Assembly (NCBI GenBank): GCA_003164035.1
Contig: PLRS01000054.1
Coordinates: forward strand, 1-64,000
Length of the DNA stretch: 64,000 nt
Reading direction: 5' to 3'
From: Bryobacterales bacterium
Lineage (GTDB): Bacteria; Acidobacteriota; Terriglobia; Bryobacterales; Bryobacteraceae
This document shows positions 16,461 through 55,130 of the stretch, in pieces. Positions within the stretch are counted from its first letter, which is position 1; each line of letters begins with the position of its first letter. Position numbers and translations under genes: made by a program. The notes under the pieces are model-generated. The model worked only from the letters and a program-made list of their open reading frames with translations. It had not been told where the DNA came from and did no database searches.

Positions 16461-16739
16461 GGTGTCGAGAGAGTCTCCCCCGCTCCTGATGTCGTGGAAT
16501 TTGCGTTGAGCCAGTTTCGGCGGCGACCGGGTGGGACAGACCATCGTTTTTCGTGGTCTGTCGGCCCCTCGCCAGGCCCTAACAGCCTGACAGACGACAA
16601 AAAACGATCGTCTGTCCCACCGCTGGGTCAGGTCATTTTCCCTTGGGCCGCTCAAAATGCCGAGGTGACATCAGGAGATCGGAGTCTCGCCACGGCACGC
16701 ACGAGCGTGCGCCACGTCCTGTTGTTTCATGACGATTCC
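16461..16739. repeat. Family-B repeat copy B2, split by element C
   Basis: The flanks of element C (GGTGTCGAGAGAGTCTC on the left; CACGGCACGCACGAG, GTGCGCCACGTC and a right end GACGATTCC at 16739) match the centre and right half of the complete family-B copy at 20407-20591. The left half is diverged or missing. A further B-type left end (CCTGTCAGGGAATAACC) begins at 16751. Confidence 0.65.
16478..16682. mobile_element. MITE-like element, family C, inserted in a family-B repeat
   Basis: A 205-bp segment is flanked by the 6-bp direct repeat AGTCTC (16472-16477 and 16683-16688). Its ends are terminal inverted repeats: CTCCTGATGTC on the left and, reverse-complemented, on the right (GACATCAGGAG). 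It contains two inverted copies of a ~36-bp palindromic motif (16530-16564 and 16585-16622; core ACAGACGA / TCGTCTGT). The intact family-B copy at 20407-20591 has the same GTGTCGAGAGAGTCTC without the insert. It encodes no protein, so it would have to be moved in trans. Confidence 0.75.
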
Positions 16740-33952: not shown

Positions 33953-36388
33953 ATGGGCCTCTTAGGTGACCTGGCATACGGTTTCCGGTCCTTCCGAAGG
34001 AATCGCGCCTTTGCCTTTGTTGCCACGATATCCTTAGCACTCGGAATCGGCGTCAACACCACCATTTTTACCTTGGTGAACTCGGTGCTGCTGGCGCCGC
34101 TTCCAGTCAATCGACCGGGAGAACTGGCCGAAGTGTACACGGTAGACAGCCACGTACCCGGCACGTGGCTGGTTTCCTATCCCAACTATAAAGACTATCG
34201 CGACCGCAACGCCGTTTTTTCCGAGTTGATGCTTTCCGGCGCGGTGGGAATCAACCTGACCGGCCGGGGCGAGCCCCAGCTCCTGGTAGCTCAGTTGGTG
34301 TCGGGCAATTACTTTGAAGGTTTGGGAGTCCGGGCCTTGGCCGGGCGCGTGCTAGGGCCCCAGGACGACCTGGAAGGTTCCAGCCCGGTGGCCGTGATCG
34401 GCTACGGTTTGTGGGGGCGGCTTTTCGGCCGCGATCCCCAAGTCATGCAGCACGGCCTGGAACTGAATGGCCTTTCCTACCGTATTGTGGGAGTGGCGCC
34501 GAAGGAATTTCGCGGGCTGGACCTGCTTTACGGCGCGGACGTGTGGCTGCCTATGGCCGCCTACCCGCGCGCTTTTCCCATTCCGGCGTGGGTCAACCAA
34601 CGGCGCGTGCAGGCGTTCGCGGTGACCGGGAGGCTGAAACCCGGCGTCAGTCTCCACCACGCGGAAGCTTCCCTGAACGCACTCGCCAGCGAACTGGAGC
34701 GCGAGTATCCGCGAGAGAATGACGGCAAGCGAATCCGGCTCGAAGGCATTTCCCAGGCGCTGGTCGGACCCGCGCTGCGTCCCAGAATCGCCAGCGCCGG
34801 TTCCGTGCTGCTGGTCGTCTCGGGCCTGGTGCTGTTGATTGCCTGCGCCAACGTGGCGAACCTGATGCTGGCGCGGGCGGCCGGCCGCACGCGCGAAATT
34901 GGCATTCGCCTGGCCCTGGGAGCCAGCCGGTTCCGTCTCATCCGCCAGTTACTCACCGAGAGCGTGTTGCTGGCCGTGGGGGGTGGTTTGCTGGCGTTGC
35001 TGCTGGCCTGGTGGGCCGGCGGCGCCCTTTGGGCGTGGCGTCCGGAACCATGGAAATACGCCATCGCCTTGCCGCGGCTCGACCGCCGCGTACTGGGTTA
35101 CAACCTGGCCATTTCGCTGGCCACCGGCCTTCTGTTTGGCCTCTTCCCTGCCCTGCGCGCCTCGCGCGGCGACCTCGCCACCGATCTGAAAGAACGTACC
35201 GGCCAGCCCCCAGCCGTCGGCAAACGCTGGAGCCCGCGCTCGCTATTAGTGATGGTGCAGGTCGCGCTTTCCCTCATCGCTCTGATCGGAGCCGGCTTGT
35301 TCGTCCGCAGCGTCTGGGATGGTGACCAAATGAATCCCGGCTTCGACGCGGCCCACCTGGGGACGATCGCCTTTAACCTTGGAGATCAAGCCTACACGGA
35401 AGACCGGGGGCGCCAATACCAGCAGCGGGCGCTGGACGTTGCCCGCCGCGCGCCGGGAGTGGATTCCGCCGCGTTGGCCAAGGATGCCCCCTTTGCGCTG
35501 ACCTCGCGCAACGTGCTCCTGGCCGGACGCGAAACCTCGCGGCCCGGCGTGGGCTGGCCCACGTATGTGCGAGTCGTCGGGCCCGGTTATTTCGCCGCGC
35601 TGCGAATCCCCATCGTCTCGGGAAGGGATTTCAGCCCGTTCGACCTGAAGTCGGCGCCGCGGGTGGCCATCGTCAACCAAGCCGCGGCCACTCATTTCTG
35701 GCCTGGCCGCAATGCCGTGGGGCAAGTGATTTCGTTCGCCGGGGAGAATTTGCCGGTCCAGGTTGTCGCCGTGGTGCGCAACGCCACTTACCTAACCCTG
35801 GGCGAAGCACCGCAGCCGTTGATTTATCTTTCGCTGATACAGTATTACTTTCCGACCACCATGTTGTACCTGCACACGCCGGGCGACCCCGCCCCGGCGG
35901 CGGCGGCCGTGCGCCGCCAACTGCAGCCGCTTGACCGCAACCTCCTCCTGCGCGACGAGAGCCTGCGCGATTTCATCCACGAAGTGCTTTGGCCGCAGCG
36001 CGTCGCCGCCAGCCTCCTCTCCGCCTTCGGTACCCTGGCGTTGCTGCTGGCGACGATCGGCATTTATGGCGTGATTTCCTACTCGGTGGCGCAGCGCGTG
36101 CGCGAAATCGGCCTGCGCATGGCTCTGGGCGCGGAGGCCTCGGCGGTGGAACGCATGATCGTGCTCGAAGGGGTTCGCATGGTGGCGATCGGAGCCATCG
36201 TCGGGCTGCTGGCGGCGCTGGCGGTTTCCCGCTCGGTCGCCGGCCTTTTGGTGGTGACCAATCCCCGCGACGCCATGACCTTCGTGCTGGTGCCCACCAT
36301 CCTGATCCTGGTGGGAGTGATCGCCTGCTGGCTCCCCGCCCGCCGCGCCACCCGTATCGACCCCGCCAAAGCCTTGCGCGAAGAGTAG
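33953..36388 (+). CDS. ADOP-type FtsX/MacB-like ABC permease (intact)
   Basis: It has 811 residues: two tandem FtsX/MacB permease units. The first has DLAYGFRSFRRNRAFAF and the helix ATISLALGIGVNTTIF, a large periplasmic domain (about 50-270), and helices at about 280-410 including CANVANLMLARAAGRTREI. The second unit follows (about 415-811) with helices near 425, 690, 745 and 785 and the ending RRATRIDPAKALREE. This is the acidobacterial duplicated orphan permease family; no ATPase gene is adjacent, as the name implies. It serves here as the full-length reference for the shortened homologue at 48366-51293. No clear ribosome-binding site. Confidence 0.92.
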   Translation: MGLLGDLAYGFRSFRRNRAFAFVATISLALGIGVNTTIFTLVNSVLLAPLPVNRPGELAEVYTVDSHVPGTWLVSYPNYKDYRDRNAVFSELMLSGAVGINLTGRGEPQLLVAQLVSGNYFEGLGVRALAGRVLGPQDDLEGSSPVAVIGYGLWGRLFGRDPQVMQHGLELNGLSYRIVGVAPKEFRGLDLLYGADVWLPMAAYPRAFPIPAWVNQRRVQAFAVTGRLKPGVSLHHAEASLNALASELEREYPRENDGKRIRLEGISQALVGPALRPRIASAGSVLLVVSGLVLLIACANVANLMLARAAGRTREIGIRLALGASRFRLIRQLLTESVLLAVGGGLLALLLAWWAGGALWAWRPEPWKYAIALPRLDRRVLGYNLAISLATGLLFGLFPALRASRGDLATDLKERTGQPPAVGKRWSPRSLLVMVQVALSLIALIGAGLFVRSVWDGDQMNPGFDAAHLGTIAFNLGDQAYTEDRGRQYQQRALDVARRAPGVDSAALAKDAPFALTSRNVLLAGRETSRPGVGWPTYVRVVGPGYFAALRIPIVSGRDFSPFDLKSAPRVAIVNQAAATHFWPGRNAVGQVISFAGENLPVQVVAVVRNATYLTLGEAPQPLIYLSLIQYYFPTTMLYLHTPGDPAPAAAAVRRQLQPLDRNLLLRDESLRDFIHEVLWPQRVAASLLSAFGTLALLLATIGIYGVISYSVAQRVREIGLRMALGAEASAVERMIVLEGVRMVAIGAIVGLLAALAVSRSVAGLLVVTNPRDAMTFVLVPTILILVGVIACWLPARRATRIDPAKALREE

Positions 36389-44864: not shown

Positions 44865-45060
44865 CCGCCGTGGAGCGGACTCTTAGTCTGCCACGCCGGG
44901 ACTCATCCCGGCGCTGTTGGTTCCCGCTACGCCGCTTTGTGTGGGCTGCCAATTCTGGCTGGAGCCGGGCCTTTCCCGTCGCGCGCTTTTCCATTCCACG
45001 GACCGTTTCCCGCCGCTGGCCTACCGGAAATCGGCTCTGAATGATGATAGCCTTCCAGAT
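44865..45060. other. Intergenic region with no recognisable feature
   Basis: In-frame codons upstream of the GTG at 45061 remain open, but they precede the signal peptide and carry no motif. Confidence 0.4.
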
Positions 45061-48000
45061 GTGATTCGCCGCTGGCTATGCATCGTACTTTTTCTTTCGA
45101 CCGCTGGCGCCTACAGCCCCGCCGTCGATTCGGCCGGTTCTCTCACCATTCGCATCCTGGACCCCACCCTTGGTAGTTACGGAGCCGGCGGCGCGGTAAC
45201 GCTGAACCGTGCCGGAGCGCCCTTCGCCCTTGCGGTTTCGCTCGAAAACCGCGGTGCCGCGCCGCTCGAAGGACTCCTTCGAATCGCCGTCATCGACCGC
45301 TGGACCGCCCAACCCTCCGGCCCCGTGCCTTTCCATTTAAACGCGCACGCCACCACGCAAGTGGAGTTCACCGTCACCGTCGGAGAGGGCTCGTATAACG
45401 CCAATTACCCGATCCACGCTTACGCCGAATTCGACCAGAGCGGGCATCGCCTGGTGGCGCACGCGGTCATGGTATTGCCGGTCGCTCTGCCGAATCCCCC
45501 GCGCGCCCAACTGCCCTTGCCGCGGCAGCCGGTCGCCGTTCCGGCCGGCGGCGCCATGGGGCTCGCGCGGCTCCCGGTGAATCGCGTCTCGGCCACGATA
45601 TCGGCTGCCGACCCTCCCATCGTTCCCACGCCGGGCGAAAACTTTGGCGTCGCCGCACCGGTACGGATTTCGGGTGATTCCATCCTCATGTCGCTCGGCC
45701 CGCGCGCTCCCTCCTTCCGCGAACGGGTGGACGCCGCGGCGGTAGAGTATCCGCTCGCCCTGCCCGATACCAAGCCCATCCGCCTCACATTTTCGGCCGC
45801 CGGGCCGGGCACGACGCTCCGGGTCCGCGTGGACGACGCGGTGGTGTTCGAGAAACCAGGCAGCAACGGCCCGGAAACCTCATCCGTCGATCTGAGCCGC
45901 TACGCCGGGCGCGTCATCCGGCTGGCTCTGGCCGCGCAGACGGCCGAACCCGGCCCGCGCCAAGCCACTTGGGCCGAACCATACCTCCTCGCGGGCGCGG
46001 AACTGGCAAAAGGCGCCCTCCCCGCCGAGACCTTGAGAGCCGGCAATTTCGCCGTGCGCATTCAGCCGGGGCCGCGCGGCATGCTGGACGGGAACATGGA
46101 GTTCTCTGGCTTAGGCAGGACGCTCAAAATCTCCGGATTCCGGATACGCGTCCTGGGCGATGCGCTTGAAGCCGCGCGTTCCACCAACCAACTGGTCGAA
46201 GTGCGGAGCGAGCCGGCGAATGGCCGCATCCGCTTCCGGCATCGTTTCCAAGGCTGGGCCGGCAGCTTCGACCTGGTTTGTGAGATATGGCCGAATGGCG
46301 ACGCCCTTGACGCTCGCTGGAAGCTGGAAAACCAGCCGCCGCCGAAACCCTGGCTCCCGGTGTATTTGGAAGGGGTGGCCGCCGGCCCATGGAGCGATTC
46401 CGTGCGGCGTGTCTACGCCGGACCGGGAAGCGCGATCGAGAAGCCCGGCCCGTTTCAATTGGGCTTCGATGGACACCACCTGGCGACTTCGTTCGTCGGC
46501 TTCGAATTCGAGAACGGTATTTCCATGGTGCAAGGCGTGGATACTCCGCCCGACTACCTGGATGTCGAGCCCGCCACGCGGACTTACACCCTGGTGACGC
46601 CCCACGAACAAACGCTCACGTTCATCCCCACCGCCAACGTCTGGGCTGGGGTGAAAGTCTGGCGCGGCCTGTCCGGCTTCAGCCGCTCGGGCGGAGTAGA
46701 GAAACTGGCCGGCCGCTTTGTCTTCGACTTGTGGGACGGGCGGTATGGCCAGAGCGCCACCGACTTGGCCAGGGCTTTTCGCTACGGCCTGACCGATGCG
46801 GTGGTTGTCTGGCACAACTGGCAGCGCTGGGGCTACGACTATCGCCTTCCCGATGTCTACCCGCCCAATCCGCAATTCGGCACTGCGGAAGATTTCGCCG
46901 CGCTGGCGCGCCTGTGCAAAGACCACGGCGTGCTATTTGCGCCGCACGACAACTACATCGATTTCTACCCCGACGCCGAAGGCTTCAGTTACGGCAACAT
47001 CGCCTTCGATCGCGACGGGCAGCCGCGGAAAGCCTGGTATCACGCCGACCGCCAGGCGCAGTCCTACCGCGCGCGCGCCGACCGGCTGCGGCCGTTTCTC
47101 GAACGAAATATCAAAACCATCGCCGCCGGATTTGCGCCGGACGCCTATTTCATCGATGTCTGGTCCTCCATGGGCCCCTACGATTACTGGAGCGCGAGCG
47201 GGGAGTTCTTCCCGCGCACCGTGACCCGCCAGGCCTGGCGCGACGCCTTCGCCTGGATTCGCGATTACCTGGGTGGCGCGCCGCAGATTTCCGAAGCCGG
47301 CCACGATCAACTGATCGGCTGGCTGGACGGCGGCCAAGCTAATCTCCTGCGCGTCGAAGCGCCGCCCGCCACCGGGTTCGTGTGGCCCATCGCCCACGCC
47401 GACGCCGAGCGCATCCCGTGGTTCGATGCCGCCTATCACGACCGGTTCGCGTCCCACGGCGCCGGCTACGAGGATCGTTATGCGGCGGGGCTCGACCTGA
47501 AGCAACACGGCATGTACAGCCGAGACTACATCTCCACCGAAGTCCTGACCGGGCATCCCGCCATGGTTCGCCAGGCTTTCAGCCGCGAGGCCGTCCGCAA
47601 GTATTGGCTGCTGCACGACCTGATGCGCGCGCTGGCGCTGCGGAAAATCGAAGGGGTGGAGTTCGGCGGCGGCAGCCTGCACCGCCAGCACGTTTCCTGG
47701 GAAGGCGGCGGCGAGGTATGGGTGAACCGCGGTGCGGGCGAGTGGAGCGTCGCCGGCCACACCCTGCCGCAATATGGCTACTACGCGCGAGTTCCGGTCG
47801 GCGGGGGCGTGGTGGAAAGTTCCATCGAAACGCGTTCGGGAACCGTGGTCGAGTGGTCGCGTTCGCCTGAAGCTTTCTACCAGGGCGAGTACCGGGTCGC
47901 GCGCGGCGCCGGCGGTATCGACGTGACCCCGCTTCCGTTCGGATCGCCATTCGAAGCGCGAATCGATACCCGCGATCTGCCGTGGAAGATCGGCGAACCG

Positions 48001-48120
48001 AAGACGGCGGACGTGGTGGATGAAGCCGGACGCGTGCTGCGTTCCGAGCCCGTCGCGCTGGAGGGCGGAGTGGTGACGGTGCGTTTCGATGGCGCGGCCT
48101 TTGGCTGGCGCCTTCGCTGA
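45061..48120 (+). CDS. Large secreted glycoside hydrolase-like protein
   Basis: It has 1019 residues with a signal peptide (IRRWLCIVLFLSTAGAYS). The N-terminal half is beta-rich: an Ig-like region (about 20-150) and a carbohydrate-binding/galactose-mutarotase-like sandwich (about 300-530). A TIM-barrel-like domain follows (about 540-860), with acidic motifs VVVWHNWQRWGYDY, FAPHDNYIDFYPD, YFIDVWSSMGPYDYW and PQISEAGHDQ that could hold the catalytic acids. The C-terminal part is again beta-rich. It resembles GH101-like or DUF5696-type enzymes, but I cannot assign a family with confidence. Probable role: attack on complex glycans outside the cell. The GTG was chosen because it opens the signal peptide. 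Confidence 0.75.
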   Translation: MIRRWLCIVLFLSTAGAYSPAVDSAGSLTIRILDPTLGSYGAGGAVTLNRAGAPFALAVSLENRGAAPLEGLLRIAVIDRWTAQPSGPVPFHLNAHATTQVEFTVTVGEGSYNANYPIHAYAEFDQSGHRLVAHAVMVLPVALPNPPRAQLPLPRQPVAVPAGGAMGLARLPVNRVSATISAADPPIVPTPGENFGVAAPVRISGDSILMSLGPRAPSFRERVDAAAVEYPLALPDTKPIRLTFSAAGPGTTLRVRVDDAVVFEKPGSNGPETSSVDLSRYAGRVIRLALAAQTAEPGPRQATWAEPYLLAGAELAKGALPAETLRAGNFAVRIQPGPRGMLDGNMEFSGLGRTLKISGFRIRVLGDALEAARSTNQLVEVRSEPANGRIRFRHRFQGWAGSFDLVCEIWPNGDALDARWKLENQPPPKPWLPVYLEGVAAGPWSDSVRRVYAGPGSAIEKPGPFQLGFDGHHLATSFVGFEFENGISMVQGVDTPPDYLDVEPATRTYTLVTPHEQTLTFIPTANVWAGVKVWRGLSGFSRSGGVEKLAGRFVFDLWDGRYGQSATDLARAFRYGLTDAVVVWHNWQRWGYDYRLPDVYPPNPQFGTAEDFAALARLCKDHGVLFAPHDNYIDFYPDAEGFSYGNIAFDRDGQPRKAWYHADRQAQSYRARADRLRPFLERNIKTIAAGFAPDAYFIDVWSSMGPYDYWSASGEFFPRTVTRQAWRDAFAWIRDYLGGAPQISEAGHDQLIGWLDGGQANLLRVEAPPATGFVWPIAHADAERIPWFDAAYHDRFASHGAGYEDRYAAGLDLKQHGMYSRDYISTEVLTGHPAMVRQAFSREAVRKYWLLHDLMRALALRKIEGVEFGGGSLHRQHVSWEGGGEVWVNRGAGEWSVAGHTLPQYGYYARVPVGGGVVESSIETRSGTVVEWSRSPEAFYQGEYRVARGAGGIDVTPLPFGSPFEARIDTRDLPWKIGEPKTADVVDEAGRVLRSEPVALEGGVVTVRFDGAAFGWRLR

Positions 48121-48365: not shown

Positions 48366-51293
48366 ATGCTGGAAGCGCGGTCCCTCACCAAGTATTACAA
48401 CCACACGCCTGCCGTCCGCCAGGTCAGCTTTACAATCAGTCCAGGCGAGATCCTCGGGTATTTAGGCCCCAATGGCGCCGGCAAGAGCACCACGGTCAAG
48501 ATGTTGGTGGGTCTGATCGAGCCTTCCGAAGGGCAAATCTTCTATCGAGGCCGAAGTGTGTACGAGGATTTCACCGCCTTCGAACGGCGCATCGGCTACG
48601 TGCCGGAGGAGCCGCATCTTTACCCGCACCTCACCGGCCGGGAGTATCTGCGCCTGGCCGGCAGGTTGCGGGGAATGCCGCGCCGGGTCCTCGAGCCCAA
48701 ATTGGACGAATTCCTCCGCGTCTTCGGCCTTTGGAGCGACAGCCACACGCCCCTGTCTTCCTATTCCAAGGGCATGCGCCAGAAAATCCTCTTGTCGGCG
48801 GCTCTGCTCCACGACCCGGATATCCTCATCTTGGACGAGCCGTTCTCGGGCCTGGATGTGACCTCCGCCATGATGCTGCGGAGTCTGCTACGGGCGCTGG
48901 CGGACCGGGGAAAGATCATTCTGTACAGTTCTCACGTTCTGGAGGTGGTCGAGAAGATCTGTTCCAAAGTCGTAATCCTCCGGCGAGGCGAAGTGGTGGC
49001 ATACGATTCGATCGAGCGGCTGCGGGAGTTGATGAGCCAGCCTTCGCTCGAAGGCGTGTTCGCCCAGTTGGCGGAGGTGGCGAATGGCGACGAGATGGCG
49101 AATCGCATTGTGGACGCGATGAGTTACCCGCGGCCGGCGGCATCGGCGGCAGGAGGCCTGACAGACGATAAAAGACGATTGTCTGTCCCACCGACGGAAG
49201 AACCGGAGCGCCCGGTCGAACTCGGCCCGCCTGTGTATCGCGGCATCGCCAGCGCATTTCCGGATGAGTTCCAAAACGTGTATGGCGGCGAGTTGCTCCA
49301 AACGGCCGAAGATACCATTGCGCTCGTCTGGCGGCAACATGGCTGGTTTGGACTGGCGCGCGTGCTGCTCGATGTCGCTATCCGCGTGCCGCTCGAGCAC
49401 GCAGCCGAGCTTGGGCAGAATTTGCGCTATGCCCTGCGGATGCTTCTCGGCTCGCCGGGCTTCACCGCGGTGGCGCTGATTTCGCTCTGCCTGGGGATTT
49501 CGATCGCCGCCTGCGCCTACAGCGAGATGAACGGCCTGTTGCGCGATTTGCCCGGAGTGCCGAAGCCCGCCGAGTTGGTGGCGTTGCAGGCGCCCTCGTC
49601 CTATCCCGCCTACAAGCGATATCGCGACTTGAACGATCTGTTCAGTTCCACGTTCGCCTATATCGCGCCGGTGCCGTTCGCGGTTTCGCTCGGCGGGCAC
49701 ACGGAGCGAACTTGGGGACACCTGGTCACGCCTTCGTATTTCCACACGCTGGGCGTGCAGCCATCGTTGGGCCGCTTCTTCGATGCGACAGACGAGCGGC
49801 CGGGGCGGGCGCCGGTGGTGGTGGTGAGCTACCGATTCTGGGAAGATCATCTGGGCTCGAACCCTTCGGTAATCGGCAGCGCGATTCGCATCAATGGGTA
49901 TCCCAGCACGATTGTCGGCGTGGGGCGAAAGGAGTTTCTGGGCGCTTCGCCGGCGCTGCAGGCTACGCGCACGGATCTGGTTTCAGCACTCAAGGAAGGC
50001 GGCAGCGTGGGCCTGCGCAAATACCGGTGGCTGAGTTTGCGCAACGTGCTCGTGCTCTGCCAAATGGCAGGTTCCCTGATGCTGCTGCTGATCATCGGCT
50101 ACATGGGCCTGGGCATCCAGGGCACGCTGGGGGCCCAGGAGGGGTTCAACCCCAGGAATCTCTACCTGGTCTCCCTCGATCCGGTGCGCGACGGGTATTC
50201 GGCGGTGCGCGCGGAGGCCTTCTTTGAAAAACTGCTGGAGCGCGTCAGGACGCTTCCCGGCATCGCCGCCGCGTGCCTGACCGATACGCTGCCGGTTTCA
50301 TTCGACGGCAACTCCGGCGTGCGGCTTTCCGACGCCGGCCGGCAAGCCAATGCGCCTCCCAACGGGTACTGGGCGCGTAAGCACATCGTGGGCCGCGACT
50401 ATTTCGAAACGGCGGGCATCCGCATCCTGACTGGGCGCGGCTTTCGAAGAGAAGACGAGGCAAATGGCGCGACGGCGATTGTCGTCAGCCAGGAAGCGGT
50501 GCGGCAGATCTGGAACGGCGAAGATCCGGTGGGACGCCGCATCGAGATCGGCAATTGGGAGGCGGCCGGGGCCTCCGCGGCGTGGATCGGCACGATCGAC
50601 CACCGCGCTTCGGCGCTGGCGAGGGAACCCCAGACGTTCGAGGTGGTCGGGGTGGTTCACGATGTGTCGGAAGATGTGATTGCGAGCAAGAAGCATGCGG
50701 CGGTGTACTTTCCGCTGCATCCGGCCGATTACGGACATCCTTCTTTGCGCGGGGTGACGCTGATGGTGCGCACGGCCCCGGGAGTGGAATCTATCGGCGC
50801 GGTGCGGCGCCAGATTGCCGCGATCGATGCGAACATCGCGCCCTTCAACGCCGGCAGCATGAGCGAACACATCGCGCAGTATATGTCCGCGCTCCAGGGG
50901 GCTTCCTGGACATACGGCTTCATGGGGGTGTTCGGGCTGGTTCTGGCATCGGTGGGGCTGGCCGGAGTGACAGGTTATTCGGTATCGACGCGCGGCCACG
51001 AGATCGGCATCCGCATGGCGCTGGGGGCGCAGAAGTGCGACGTGCTGACGCTGGTAATGAAGGAGGGAGCAATCCTGGTATTGGTGGGCACGGTGGCAGG
51101 CCTGGCGCTTGCCTGGGCCGGAATCCGCGCCGTCTCCGCCATGTTCTTCACCGTGGCCAGCGTGCGAAGCTCCGACCCCGTGCTGCTGGTGGGCGCCCCG
51201 CTGCTGCTGGCCGGACTGGCCCTGCTCGCCTGCTACTTGCCAGCTCGCCGATCGGCGCGCATCGATCCCGTGGTGGCCTTGCGCCAGGAGTGA
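48366..51293 (+). CDS. Chimeric ABC ATPase / shortened ADOP permease
   Basis: It has 975 residues. Residues 1-245 are a complete ABC ATPase: Walker A GPNGAGKST, signature SYSKGMRQK, Walker B ILILDEPFSGLD and switch SSHVLEV. Residues about 264-277 (GLTDDKRRLSVPP) are encoded by a family-C repeat fragment. From about 285 an ADOP-type permease begins (FPDEFQNVYGGEL, LRYALRMLLGSPGFT). At about 529 the sequence jumps from GVGRKEFLGASP to ALQATRTDLVSALKEGG. Compared with the intact ADOP at 33953-36388, some 200 residues (end of the first periplasmic domain and the helices after it) are missing, in frame. The rest of the second unit looks intact to RIDPVVALRQE. The ATPase probably serves the ABC-2-like membrane protein encoded next; whether the ADOP half works is doubtful. 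Confidence 0.88.
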   Translation: MLEARSLTKYYNHTPAVRQVSFTISPGEILGYLGPNGAGKSTTVKMLVGLIEPSEGQIFYRGRSVYEDFTAFERRIGYVPEEPHLYPHLTGREYLRLAGRLRGMPRRVLEPKLDEFLRVFGLWSDSHTPLSSYSKGMRQKILLSAALLHDPDILILDEPFSGLDVTSAMMLRSLLRALADRGKIILYSSHVLEVVEKICSKVVILRRGEVVAYDSIERLRELMSQPSLEGVFAQLAEVANGDEMANRIVDAMSYPRPAASAAGGLTDDKRRLSVPPTEEPERPVELGPPVYRGIASAFPDEFQNVYGGELLQTAEDTIALVWRQHGWFGLARVLLDVAIRVPLEHAAELGQNLRYALRMLLGSPGFTAVALISLCLGISIAACAYSEMNGLLRDLPGVPKPAELVALQAPSSYPAYKRYRDLNDLFSSTFAYIAPVPFAVSLGGHTERTWGHLVTPSYFHTLGVQPSLGRFFDATDERPGRAPVVVVSYRFWEDHLGSNPSVIGSAIRINGYPSTIVGVGRKEFLGASPALQATRTDLVSALKEGGSVGLRKYRWLSLRNVLVLCQMAGSLMLLLIIGYMGLGIQGTLGAQEGFNPRNLYLVSLDPVRDGYSAVRAEAFFEKLLERVRTLPGIAAACLTDTLPVSFDGNSGVRLSDAGRQANAPPNGYWARKHIVGRDYFETAGIRILTGRGFRREDEANGATAIVVSQEAVRQIWNGEDPVGRRIEIGNWEAAGASAAWIGTIDHRASALAREPQTFEVVGVVHDVSEDVIASKKHAAVYFPLHPADYGHPSLRGVTLMVRTAPGVESIGAVRRQIAAIDANIAPFNAGSMSEHIAQYMSALQGASWTYGFMGVFGLVLASVGLAGVTGYSVSTRGHEIGIRMALGAQKCDVLTLVMKEGAILVLVGTVAGLALAWAGIRAVSAMFFTVASVRSSDPVLLVGAPLLLAGLALLACYLPARRSARIDPVVALRQE
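49156..49193. repeat. Family-C repeat fragment inside the chimeric ABC gene
   Basis: 38 bases match 16585-16622 of element C at 35 positions, including the palindromic arms ACAGACGA / GTCTGT. It lies in frame between the ATPase and ADOP parts. Confidence 0.8.
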
Positions 51294-51303
51294 AAATCGC
51301 ATC

Positions 51304-52998
51304 ATGAAAGAATGGCTTCGCGAAACCCGCGGACCGGTATTCGAGCTCTTTCGCCATTTCCTGCTGAGTTTCTTCGCCAGCGAACTGGTTACGGCCACCG
51401 GCCAGACGGCATCCACATTGTTCGGCGTGTTTGCTTGTCTGCTGCCCTGCGGCATGATGTTCGTGCAGCCGCTCAAGCTCAAGTACGAGTATCTTTCGAG
51501 CCTGCCCGTTCCGGGGCCCTATCGCGAAGCCGTCCGGGCCGACGAACTCTGGCTGATCGTCCTTGTCATGTCCGCAATGGGAGTCCTGACCGCGATCAAG
51601 TGGCAATCTCTGTTTCCGGGACTGCGGGATTATCGCGCCCTGGCATCGCTGCCGCTTCGGCCCGCGCAGGTTTTCGCGGGCAAATTCCTGGCTCTGGTTG
51701 CGGTCGCCACAGTTGCGGTTTTCACTCTGAGCTCACTCACCGCATGCACGTTTGCTCCTGTTTCCACCAGCCGCTGGGCAATGAATCCATCCCTGGGACC
51801 GCGAATTCTGGCGCATACCGCCGCATCCAGCGCCGCCGGCTATTTCTTCTTCTTCGCGGTGGTTACCCTCCAGGGCCTGCTACTGAATGTGATGCGGCCG
51901 CGCCTGTTCGAGCGGGTCACCGGATACTTACAGGGATTTCTTGTGGCGGCCATGCTGATCCTGCTGGTGATGAGCTTCTCTATCCAGCCGGAATTCACCC
52001 GCGCGGCCATCCGGCCGGAATTGGCGCGCTGGCTTCCGCCAGTGTGGTTCCTGGGCCTTTACCAGGCGATCTCGGGGGATTTGGATCCGGGAATGCAGGC
52101 GCTCGCTCACACGGCAAGGGCGGCACTCGCGATCTCCGCCGGGTTGGCCGTATTCACCTACCTGATCGGCTATGGCCGCCATCGCGCCCTGGTGGTGGAG
52201 GGCGTGGCCCTGCCCGCCAAAACTCGGCCGTGGGCAGCCGCCTTGCTCGACTGGTTCGTTCCCGATCCTCGCCAGCAGGCCATCCTCGTCTTCATGATGA
52301 GAACCATGGCGGGCAGCGGCCAGCACCGCATGATCCTGATGGGATACGGTGGTTTCGGCTTGGCCATCCTGTTAAGCGGTATGATCGGCATGCGGGAAAT
52401 GGTCGCGCCCGCCAGGTTAGTCCCGGCGTGCTTCGTCTACGCCCATGTGATTCTGCTGGTCTTTCTGCTGCTCGGTGTGCGCCACCTGTTTTCCATTCCA
52501 ACCGAGCTGGGGGCGAATTGGATGTTTCGGATCGCGGAACGGGAAGGGCGCCGCCACTGGATGCGCGCGGTCGACCGTTTGATTCTCTTTTCGGGTGCCG
52601 TGTTCATGCTGGCGATTCCCTTCCCCGCCGAGGTCAAGTTTCTCGCCTGGCGCGCGCTGGCCGAGTCAGCTTTATTCGCGGTTTTCGGCCTGCTCTGTTA
52701 CGAATGGGCCTTCTCTTCCTGGGAGAAACTACCGTTCACCTGCTCGTATCTTCCCGGAAAGACGCCGGCGTGGATCGTGGCATTGAAACTCCTCGGAATT
52801 CTCACTCTGCTGCCCATTGTGAGCGGGATTATGCTTGCCTGTTTGTACAACCCTGTAGCGTACCTCGCGGCGATGGCCATTCTGCTGGCGGCTTGGGCCC
52901 GCGCCTGCGCCATCCGAAAAGAGACCTGGGGAGAGGTACGCTTGAGGTACGAGGAATTGCCCGAGCCGGCGATTCACGGGCTGAACCTGCTCCAATAG
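51304..52998 (+). CDS. ABC-type multi-span membrane protein
   Basis: It has 564 residues with about 12 hydrophobic segments (for example LFGVFACLLPCGMMFV, FFFFAVVTLQGLLLNV, LILFSGAVFMLAIPF and LLGILTLLPIVSGIML). It reads like an ABC-2 exporter membrane subunit; SLPLRPAQVFAGKFLALV is the conserved cytoplasmic loop with a typical small-residue/Pro motif. It begins 11 bases after the chimeric ATPase gene and is its likely partner. Exported substrate unknown. An alternative frame over this gene is open but carries no motifs. Confidence 0.8.
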   Translation: MKEWLRETRGPVFELFRHFLLSFFASELVTATGQTASTLFGVFACLLPCGMMFVQPLKLKYEYLSSLPVPGPYREAVRADELWLIVLVMSAMGVLTAIKWQSLFPGLRDYRALASLPLRPAQVFAGKFLALVAVATVAVFTLSSLTACTFAPVSTSRWAMNPSLGPRILAHTAASSAAGYFFFFAVVTLQGLLLNVMRPRLFERVTGYLQGFLVAAMLILLVMSFSIQPEFTRAAIRPELARWLPPVWFLGLYQAISGDLDPGMQALAHTARAALAISAGLAVFTYLIGYGRHRALVVEGVALPAKTRPWAAALLDWFVPDPRQQAILVFMMRTMAGSGQHRMILMGYGGFGLAILLSGMIGMREMVAPARLVPACFVYAHVILLVFLLLGVRHLFSIPTELGANWMFRIAEREGRRHWMRAVDRLILFSGAVFMLAIPFPAEVKFLAWRALAESALFAVFGLLCYEWAFSSWEKLPFTCSYLPGKTPAWIVALKLLGILTLLPIVSGIMLACLYNPVAYLAAMAILLAAWARACAIRKETWGEVRLRYEELPEPAIHGLNLLQ

Positions 52999-53009
52999 GG
53001 TCCCTACAC

Positions 53010-55130
53010 ATGAAAACAATCTGCCTTGTCGCGATTTGCCTTGCCTTGGCCCCGCACGTTCGAGCCGCGGGCTTCGAGACCGCCCGCGTGAAAGTCACCA
53101 TCGCGGGAGCCGAAGCGCCGTTCTGGATCCTGCAATCGAAAACCGGGCCGGCCGCGCTCGACGTCTCGCCGCCGGTCTTTTCCATCGATGGTGCGCGCCA
53201 CACCGCCGTGCTGGTGGACGTTCGTGAAATCGCCGCGCCGGTGACGCTCCCGAACGGCACGGTGGAATACCGCTACCAGGGGCGATTTCGAGACGATCCG
53301 TCGCTGTCGCTCGAGCTCGACTTCCGGGCCGCTGCCGACAACCCCGTCGTCCGGTTCGCCTACAAGCTGAAAAGTTCGCGGGAAAGGCGGTTGACGAAAC
53401 CGGTGGGCTCGGACGATCTGACGTATCTCGCCGCGTCTCTCAAGCCGTTTCCGAGAGTCACCGAGGTGCGCTTGTCCGAGTTCCTGGCGCAGGTCCACAG
53501 CTACACCCTCCAGGAGTACCCGCTCGCACCGCGGGAGTTCGATAACGGGCTTGCGCCGATGGGGCCGATTCTGGCCGCGTCCGACGGGCGACGCTCGGTG
53601 CTGATCGCATACGAACATGGTTCGCAGGTTCCCGACGCGTTCCTGCAATTCCGGCTGGCTCCCGATCACATGGTGCGCCTGGCAGCCGCCAAAGCCAACT
53701 ACCTTACCGGCCAGACACTCGGCCCGGGACACGACTACGAAACCATATGGTTCGATGCCGCGGCGGTGGAGGGAGATGAAACCGCGCTGCGGGCCGCGTT
53801 CCGCGATTTCGTTCTGCGCCGCCTCGCGCTTCACAATGAAAGCCGCAAGCCGTACATCTATTACAACACCTGGAATTTCCAGGAGCGCAACAAGCACTGG
53901 AACGGCAAACCGTACCTGGAATCGATGAACGAAGTGCGAATGCTCGCCGAAATCGATGTGGCCCACCGGATGGGTATCGACGTTTTCGTGCTCGACACCG
54001 GATGGTACGAGAAGACCGGCGACTGGCGCGTCAGCTCGTCGCGGTTCCCTCGGGGGCTGGGGCCGATCAAGAGGAAGCTGGATGGCTACGGCATGAAGCT
54101 CGGGCTCTGGTTCGACCCGACCGCCGCCGCCCAATCGAGCGCGGCGTACCGCGACCACCCCGGCGACGTCATGTCCTGGCGCGGCCACCGCTCGGATCCC
54201 AAACCGATTTGGGAAACCGAGCCCAGCTACCGGATGTGCCTGGTCAGCGGCCACGCCGACGTCTTCGCCGATGAGCTGATCCGCGCGTATCGCGAGCTGG
54301 GCGTCACCTACTTCAAGTGGGACGCCGTCGCCCAGTACGGCTGCGATAGCGCCGATCACGGCCATGGCGACGCGGCGGTTACCGCGGAGGAGCGCGCCCA
54401 GTCCTACGCATTTCAACTTCCCCGCCAGATGGCGCGCATTGCGGAGAAACTCGAGGCGGCCTGTCCGGAAGCGATCGTCGATTTCGACGTCACCGAGAGC
54501 GGGCGGGCCTTCGGCCTCGGCTTTCTCTCGGCCGGCAAGTATTTCCTCATCAACAACGGACCGTACTATCAGAATTACGATGTCCCGATCGACCCGGACA
54601 AAGACAACTGGAACCTATTCTTCCACAAAGGTCCGGCGCGGACCTGGATCGCCCGTACGCCGCTCGACTACGACAACTGGATTCCTTCGTCGCTGTTCCT
54701 TACCCATTACCTGCCCGACGATCCCTACGACTCGCAGATCGTGAATATCGCGTCGCTGATTCTGGGGCAGAACGGGATCTGGGGCGATCTGCCGCGCGTC
54801 TCGAGCGAAGGGGTCGAACTGTTCGGGCACCTGCTGGGCCTCTACAAGCAGGTGCGCGACGACATGACGGCGAGTTCTCCGGTGACGTCGGGCGCGGTCT
54901 CTGGCGCGTCCGAGGTACACGAAAAGATCGCAACCGGTTCCGGCCGGGGCGCCATCGTTTTGTTTTCGACCGCGGCTGGGCCGGTCACATATGTGAGCGC
55001 CGGCCGCCCGAACCAGGCGTTTACGGCAACCCAGGGCGTGACCGTGAAGTTCGACGCTTCCGGCCGCGCCGTTCTCCGCGCCGCTTTCGACAAGCCCGGC
55101 GCCGCCATCGTGTTCTTCGGCGCGAAGTGA
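53010..55130 (+). CDS. Secreted alpha-galactosidase-like glycoside hydrolase (clan GH-D)
   Basis: It has 706 residues with a signal peptide (ICLVAICLALAPHVRA). The N-terminal beta-sandwich (about 20-280) is followed by a TIM barrel (about 285-600). Clan GH-D features are visible: YYNTWNF, IDVFVLDTGWYEKTGDW, MKLGLWFDP, the nucleophile Asp in TYFKWDAVAQYG (about 437) and the acid/base Asp in VDFDVTESGR (about 491). A C-terminal beta domain ends the protein. It resembles GH36/GH27 melibiases; GH97 was considered and rejected for lack of its Glu motifs. The ATG lies 11 bases after the ABC membrane gene, so a transport link is possible. Confidence 0.85.
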   Translation: MKTICLVAICLALAPHVRAAGFETARVKVTIAGAEAPFWILQSKTGPAALDVSPPVFSIDGARHTAVLVDVREIAAPVTLPNGTVEYRYQGRFRDDPSLSLELDFRAAADNPVVRFAYKLKSSRERRLTKPVGSDDLTYLAASLKPFPRVTEVRLSEFLAQVHSYTLQEYPLAPREFDNGLAPMGPILAASDGRRSVLIAYEHGSQVPDAFLQFRLAPDHMVRLAAAKANYLTGQTLGPGHDYETIWFDAAAVEGDETALRAAFRDFVLRRLALHNESRKPYIYYNTWNFQERNKHWNGKPYLESMNEVRMLAEIDVAHRMGIDVFVLDTGWYEKTGDWRVSSSRFPRGLGPIKRKLDGYGMKLGLWFDPTAAAQSSAAYRDHPGDVMSWRGHRSDPKPIWETEPSYRMCLVSGHADVFADELIRAYRELGVTYFKWDAVAQYGCDSADHGHGDAAVTAEERAQSYAFQLPRQMARIAEKLEAACPEAIVDFDVTESGRAFGLGFLSAGKYFLINNGPYYQNYDVPIDPDKDNWNLFFHKGPARTWIARTPLDYDNWIPSSLFLTHYLPDDPYDSQIVNIASLILGQNGIWGDLPRVSSEGVELFGHLLGLYKQVRDDMTASSPVTSGAVSGASEVHEKIATGSGRGAIVLFSTAAGPVTYVSAGRPNQAFTATQGVTVKFDASGRAVLRAAFDKPGAAIVFFGAK

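Follow-up and report, generated by a model that had tools for sequence, protein, structure and literature searches.

An ATPase-ADOP fusion gene of a Bryobacterales bacterium with a REP-type repeat at its domain seam and an in-frame loss of three transmembrane helices

The window analyzed here, a stretch of 64,000 nucleotides from a Bryobacterales genome assembly, carries on its plus strand a single open frame (48366 to 51293, ATG to TGA) that joins an ABC ATPase to an ADOP (acidobacterial duplicated orphan permease) in one protein of 975 amino acids. A preliminary description of this DNA had recognized a complete ATPase and an ADOP in one frame, and matches to Pfam and to TIGR03434 are in good agreement with this. 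Pfam placed ABC_tran at residues 18 to 160, MacB_PCD at 367 to 528 and FtsX at 852 to 968. The ADOP model TIGR03434 matched in two stretches with 518.4 bits, which is below its curated cutoff of 622.3 because 212 residues are missing from the protein. The protein differs from an ADOP in the strict sense, which has two MacB_PCD/FtsX halves with 8 transmembrane helices (TM) and no ATPase in the chain.

The ATPase (48366 to 49127, plus strand, residues 1 to 254) is complete and DrrA/ABCA-like, with 108.6 bits for ABC_tran and 78 to 87% identity to its counterparts in other fusions. Its closest NCBIfam models are DrrA/GldA and its closest PDB chains are ABCA. The DrrA subfamily model scored 212 bits (cutoff 312) with the ABC_tran domain present, and the MacB equivalog model scored 137 bits against a cutoff of 966; the ATPase is not of the MacB/LolD type. 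It is followed on the same strand by a linker (49128 to 49193) that contains a repeat, as seen from alignment with the repeat-free linkers of the relatives G052 and G096, and by the N-terminal cytoplasmic prefix of the ADOP (TEEPERPV..., 49194 to 49415), which is homologous to a stand-alone ADOP from residue 2. Hydropathy places TM1 of the ADOP at 49461 to 49517. The first MacB-like periplasmic core domain (49518 to 49952) is truncated, covers profile positions 1 to 161 of 207 and ends with KEFLGASP. The junction of a 636-bp in-frame deletion (49945 to 49960) leads into the second ADOP half (49953 to 51290), made of TM5, a second periplasmic domain and TM6 to TM8 (FtsX) according to Pfam and a TM scan. 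Its best solved relative is MacB (E 8e-15), and all solved relatives of the permease part in the PDB are of the MacB type. AlphaFold models of the 975-residue protein and of the G052 fusion were both poor, with a mean pLDDT of 57 each and low values in the membrane parts.

Starting 10 bp past the stop codon of the fusion, the next gene (51304 to 52998, plus strand) encodes a polytopic permease of 564 amino acids with about 12 TM. This product had no match in Pfam, NCBIfam or the PDB, and from its position beside a DrrA-type ATPase we infer that it is ABC-2-like. ATPase and ABC-2-like genes were adjacent in nearly all mapped relatives whose contig reaches that far. Furthermore, G065, G113, G111 and G101 carry only this ATPase gene and the ABC-2-like gene, without an ADOP, and there the ends of the two genes overlap by a few bases, which supports their pairing as a cassette. 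In the window, the cassette is flanked by genes for a large DUF5696-like protein (44917 to 48120) and a melibiase-like glycosidase (53031 to 55130), neither of which is common to the related cassettes. A second stand-alone ADOP of the window, at 33953 to 36388, is intact and 811 amino acids long. A scan of genome contigs gave one distant relative only. The same genome (G000) also holds a paralogous cassette on contig C54 (L024:6842-9378), in which an ADOP split over two frames lies upstream of the ATPase and ABC-2-like genes. Frame changes were likewise seen in the ADOP of related cassettes (L022:4978-6124 and L023:4710-7189, G003; L059:2532-2602, G195), reflecting either decay or sequencing error.

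The fusion itself is not restricted to the window. Searching 237 genomes of the family, we found ATPase-ADOP fusions in at least four other genomes, which belong to three other genera. In G052:C197 (1168 amino acids from the ATG) and G096:C124 (1179 amino acids), a single frame encodes the ATPase, the prefix and the complete ADOP, and the gene behind it is the same ABC-2-like one. In G071:C245 and G179:C1060 the fusion can be followed as far as the contig end; their linker region is shorter and has no prefix. The contig G195:C96 starts inside the ADOP. Extending the search to 399 genomes drawn from the class gave no further fused copy at E 1e-118. The linkers of G052, G096, G071 and G179 are free of the repeat, and the 212-residue middle is kept in these fusions. 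The preliminary description had treated the fusion as a product of the repeat and had held repeat-free fusions in relatives to speak against this. In its general form, a unique fusion made by the repeat is indeed ruled out by these four genomes, but the ADOP of the window is of another lineage than theirs, and the repeat may have had a part in the window's own seam.

Additionally, a second kind of fusion was found, in which an ADOP forms the C terminus of the ABC-2-like permease in one ORF of about 1360 to 1755 codons. There are at least 27 such loci in the family (L022, L026, L067-L069, L072, L074 and L162-L181), counted as 20, one of them with only the ADOP middle scored, plus 7; one lies in the genome of the window (G000:C74). 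In nearly all of them, the ORF is located downstream of a DrrA-like ATPase gene. That two kinds of fusion involve the same partners suggests that the ADOPs concerned work with the exporter. We found no papers on ADOP fusions in the collection searched, where literature on ADOPs is sparse.

The repeat in the linker (49156 to 49193, plus strand) is read in frame as (G)LTDDKRRLSVPP and is identical to positions 16585 to 16622 of the window at 35 of 38 bases; other offsets tried scored at most 17. The 35/38 identity and the open frame had been correctly noted in the preliminary description. What it called a fragment is, however, one complete unit, since the conserved unit of the family measures 37 bp and is present as a whole at the seam. 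Elsewhere in the window (16533 to 16618) the same repeat occurs as an inverted pair, and for 23 of 30 copies a partner in inverted orientation lies no more than 90 bp away. The 8.0-Mb genome contains 64 strict copies (none with the reversed-pattern control), and no match to the hairpin pattern was obtained in 100 shuffles of the window. Folding of the repeat RNA gave a hairpin of -16.6 kcal/mol (z = -3.3). The family thus has the features of REPs, namely a short palindrome in many dispersed copies, often as inverted pairs. A candidate mobilizer is a Y1_Tnp (RAYT-like) gene at G000:C158:159223-159456 (L111), with at least four related hairpins around it; its flanks hold a close variant, GGCAGACCA...TGGTCTGCC, and not the identical repeat.

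REPs are usually extragenic, and of 30 other copies examined here none falls within a long ORF, so that the seam is an unusual position for this family. The passage of the reading frame is unremarkable, because the consensus, read directly, has a stop codon in only one of its six frames. Over eight stem positions, the seam copy carries two changes and the 59 other copies carry none (55 copies) or one (4 copies); having the most diverged stem of its family, it is no young copy. The end of the repeat abuts ADOP codon 2 exactly, as seen from TEEPERPV in the window and MTEPSNRPV in the stand-alone ADOP of L023, and an AGGAGG stretch lies directly upstream of the repeat. It had been stated that the ADOP lacks its first residues; the initiator methionine is demonstrably gone, and the match to L023 runs from residue 2, which limits the demonstrable loss to that residue.

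We analyzed the ancestry of the two parts of the fusion separately. In the tree of the ATPase and ABC-2-like genes, those of the window fall with the fused loci (support 93/93), and an AU test also allows these host genes a position outside that group of loci (p 0.35). The ADOP body of the window falls among the stand-alone ADOPs of G049:C201, G156 and G128 (support 100/99), and uniting it with the fused ADOPs was rejected (AU p 3e-58). A first tree, built without the stand-alone genes, had given a hint that this ADOP is different (p 0.014), and a one-residue gap near residue 392 (EMNGL-LRDLPG) is common to the window ADOP and the stand-alone ones. Inheritance of the relatives' fused ADOP body is ruled out by the tree and the AU test. 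The window gene is thus a chimera in its own right.

Two histories would account for this ancestry: an ADOP body was swapped into an inherited fusion, or a stand-alone ADOP joined the ATPase at this point in a new fusion. With its 85 columns, the prefix fits replacement and new fusion alike (AU 0.46 and 0.46). One form of a new fusion would involve the repeat. An ADOP gene of the stand-alone kind, carrying a REP on its 5' side, would have landed behind the ATPase gene, and this REP together with the loss of the stop and start codons would have joined the frames. The stand-alone lineage of the ADOP body, the coincidence of the repeat's end with the start of codon 2, the AGGAGG stretch just before it, the absence of the other 30 copies from long ORFs and the AU result for the host genes would all fit such an event. 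Yet all loci with which the host operon groups are fused at the same point, which makes a second independent fusion less parsimonious, and long linkers exist without any repeat (G096, G071). We therefore regard this course of events as rather unlikely, though worth keeping in view.

Compared with the three orthologues G052, G096 and G195, the window gene lacks exactly 212 codons (636 bp) after KEFLGASP, which bears out the in-frame deletion of about 200 residues claimed before. Slippage between short repeats is possible as its cause, because CGCCG flanks the deleted stretch at both ends in G096. The deletion junction is unique to the window among the matches listed for the 237 genomes. TM scan and hydropathy gave 8 TM in the orthologues and 5 in the window, with TM2, TM3 and TM4 lost; the deleted part is indeed the end of the first periplasmic domain and the helices that follow it. 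A misassembly could have produced the deletion or the ADOP replacement, given a metagenome-type assembly of 169 contigs with a contamination estimate of 4.3% and about 60 or more ADOP-type middles in the genome as possible sources of a misjoin. This is very unlikely in our view, since the frame is exactly preserved in both changes, homologous positions of one protein are cleanly joined at the deletion, and the missing segment is found elsewhere in the genome at 47% identity at best.

Because an odd number of helices was removed (TM2 to TM4 of 8), the end of the periplasmic fragment meets the cytoplasmic start of TM5 without a membrane crossing. This is a topological conflict, and the ADOP remnant is probably no working permease. 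The 449 codons after the deletion are nevertheless intact. The branch of the remnant measures 0.22, with 0.18 to 0.40 in the nearest intact stand-alone relatives, and its second half violates 7 of 109 invariant sites, with 5/107, 7/109, 9/111 and 11/112 as examples from intact homologues. This lack of visible decay may mean that the remnant is still used or that the deletion is very recent. The preliminary description had proposed either that selection kept a new fusion protein or that the event was very recent. Its alternatives may hold for the deletion, but the architecture is not new, and the diverged stem of the repeat argues against a very recent seam.

If the remnant were under selection, the part with 5 TM would work as a tethered module in the periplasm, for instance as an adaptor domain there. 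The frame that stays open through repeat and deletion, and the rate of change, which is not clearly accelerated, could be read in this way. We consider it improbable: the odd loss of helices conflicts with the positive-inside flanks of TM5 (four K/R before it and none after it), the first periplasmic domain is cut to 161 of 207 profile positions, and no second example exists among the matches listed for the 237 genomes.

Taking these data together, we favor, at evenly balanced confidence, a history in which an inherited cassette received a REP in its linker, had its ADOP body exchanged or newly fused and suffered the 636-bp deletion, leaving a crippled ADOP beside a working exporter. The locus would be a member of an old family cassette consisting of the ATPase-ADOP fusion and the ABC-2-like permease. 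Its ATPase most likely drives the permease encoded directly behind it, and the ADOP would be tethered to the ATPase via a flexible linker. In the lineage of the window, a single REP hairpin would have arrived in this linker and been tolerated, the frame being kept in a disordered stretch. A stand-alone ADOP body would have been exchanged in, or a stand-alone ADOP fused anew into the same slot. The deletion, possibly between the 5-bp repeats, would have taken TM2 to TM4 and half of the first periplasmic domain. The second half of the ADOP is probably non-functional or misinserted after this loss, and an exporter made of the ATPase and the ABC-2-like permease should remain in working order. The open frame would mainly serve to keep the ATPase and the permease gene 10 bp further on translated.

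We tentatively propose, with slightly less than even confidence, that at least some ADOP subgroups of this family are not orphans but belong, together with a DrrA-like ATPase and a 12-TM permease of the ABC-2-like kind, to a hybrid exporter, fused either as ATPase-ADOP (5 loci including the window) or as ABC2-ADOP (at least 27 loci), the window being a case in which the ADOP was swapped and then disabled. By linking ADOPs to the same ATPase/ABC-2-like exporter, the two kinds of fusion make the question of what powers ADOP permeases testable. These permeases can number about a hundred in an acidobacterial genome, with 102 in one MAG (PMC10564751). The window additionally illustrates a fusion that tolerates the insertion of a repeat, an exchange of the permease body and the loss of three helices in frame.

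Compared with known systems, the window gene is closest to the fused relatives (G052:C197, G096:C124, G071:C245 and G179:C1060), with which it shares the ATPase subfamily (78 to 87% identity), the fusion point and, where the contig reaches, the next ABC-2-like gene. It differs from them in the linker repeat, in the loss of the 212-residue middle and in the lineage of its ADOP. With ADOPs (TIGR03434) it has in common the prefix, TM1, the first periplasmic domain and the second half with FtsX; however, an ADOP is normally a separate gene without an ATPase, and that of the window is fused and devoid of TM2 to TM4. MacB, an ATPase with a 4-TM permease and a periplasmic core domain, likewise combines an N-terminal ATPase and a MacB_PCD/FtsX-type permease in one chain, but here the ATPase is DrrA/ABCA-like and the permease is a duplicated ADOP with a broken topology. 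The Y1_Tnp gene with flanking close variants of the repeat may represent an arrangement as in REP/RAYT systems. In-frame REP/RPE palindromes inside ORFs are known from Rickettsia conorii and others (PMC3733652); there too a small hairpin repeat is read in frame, probably as a linker, whereas the repeat of the window belongs to another sequence family and is located at a domain seam.
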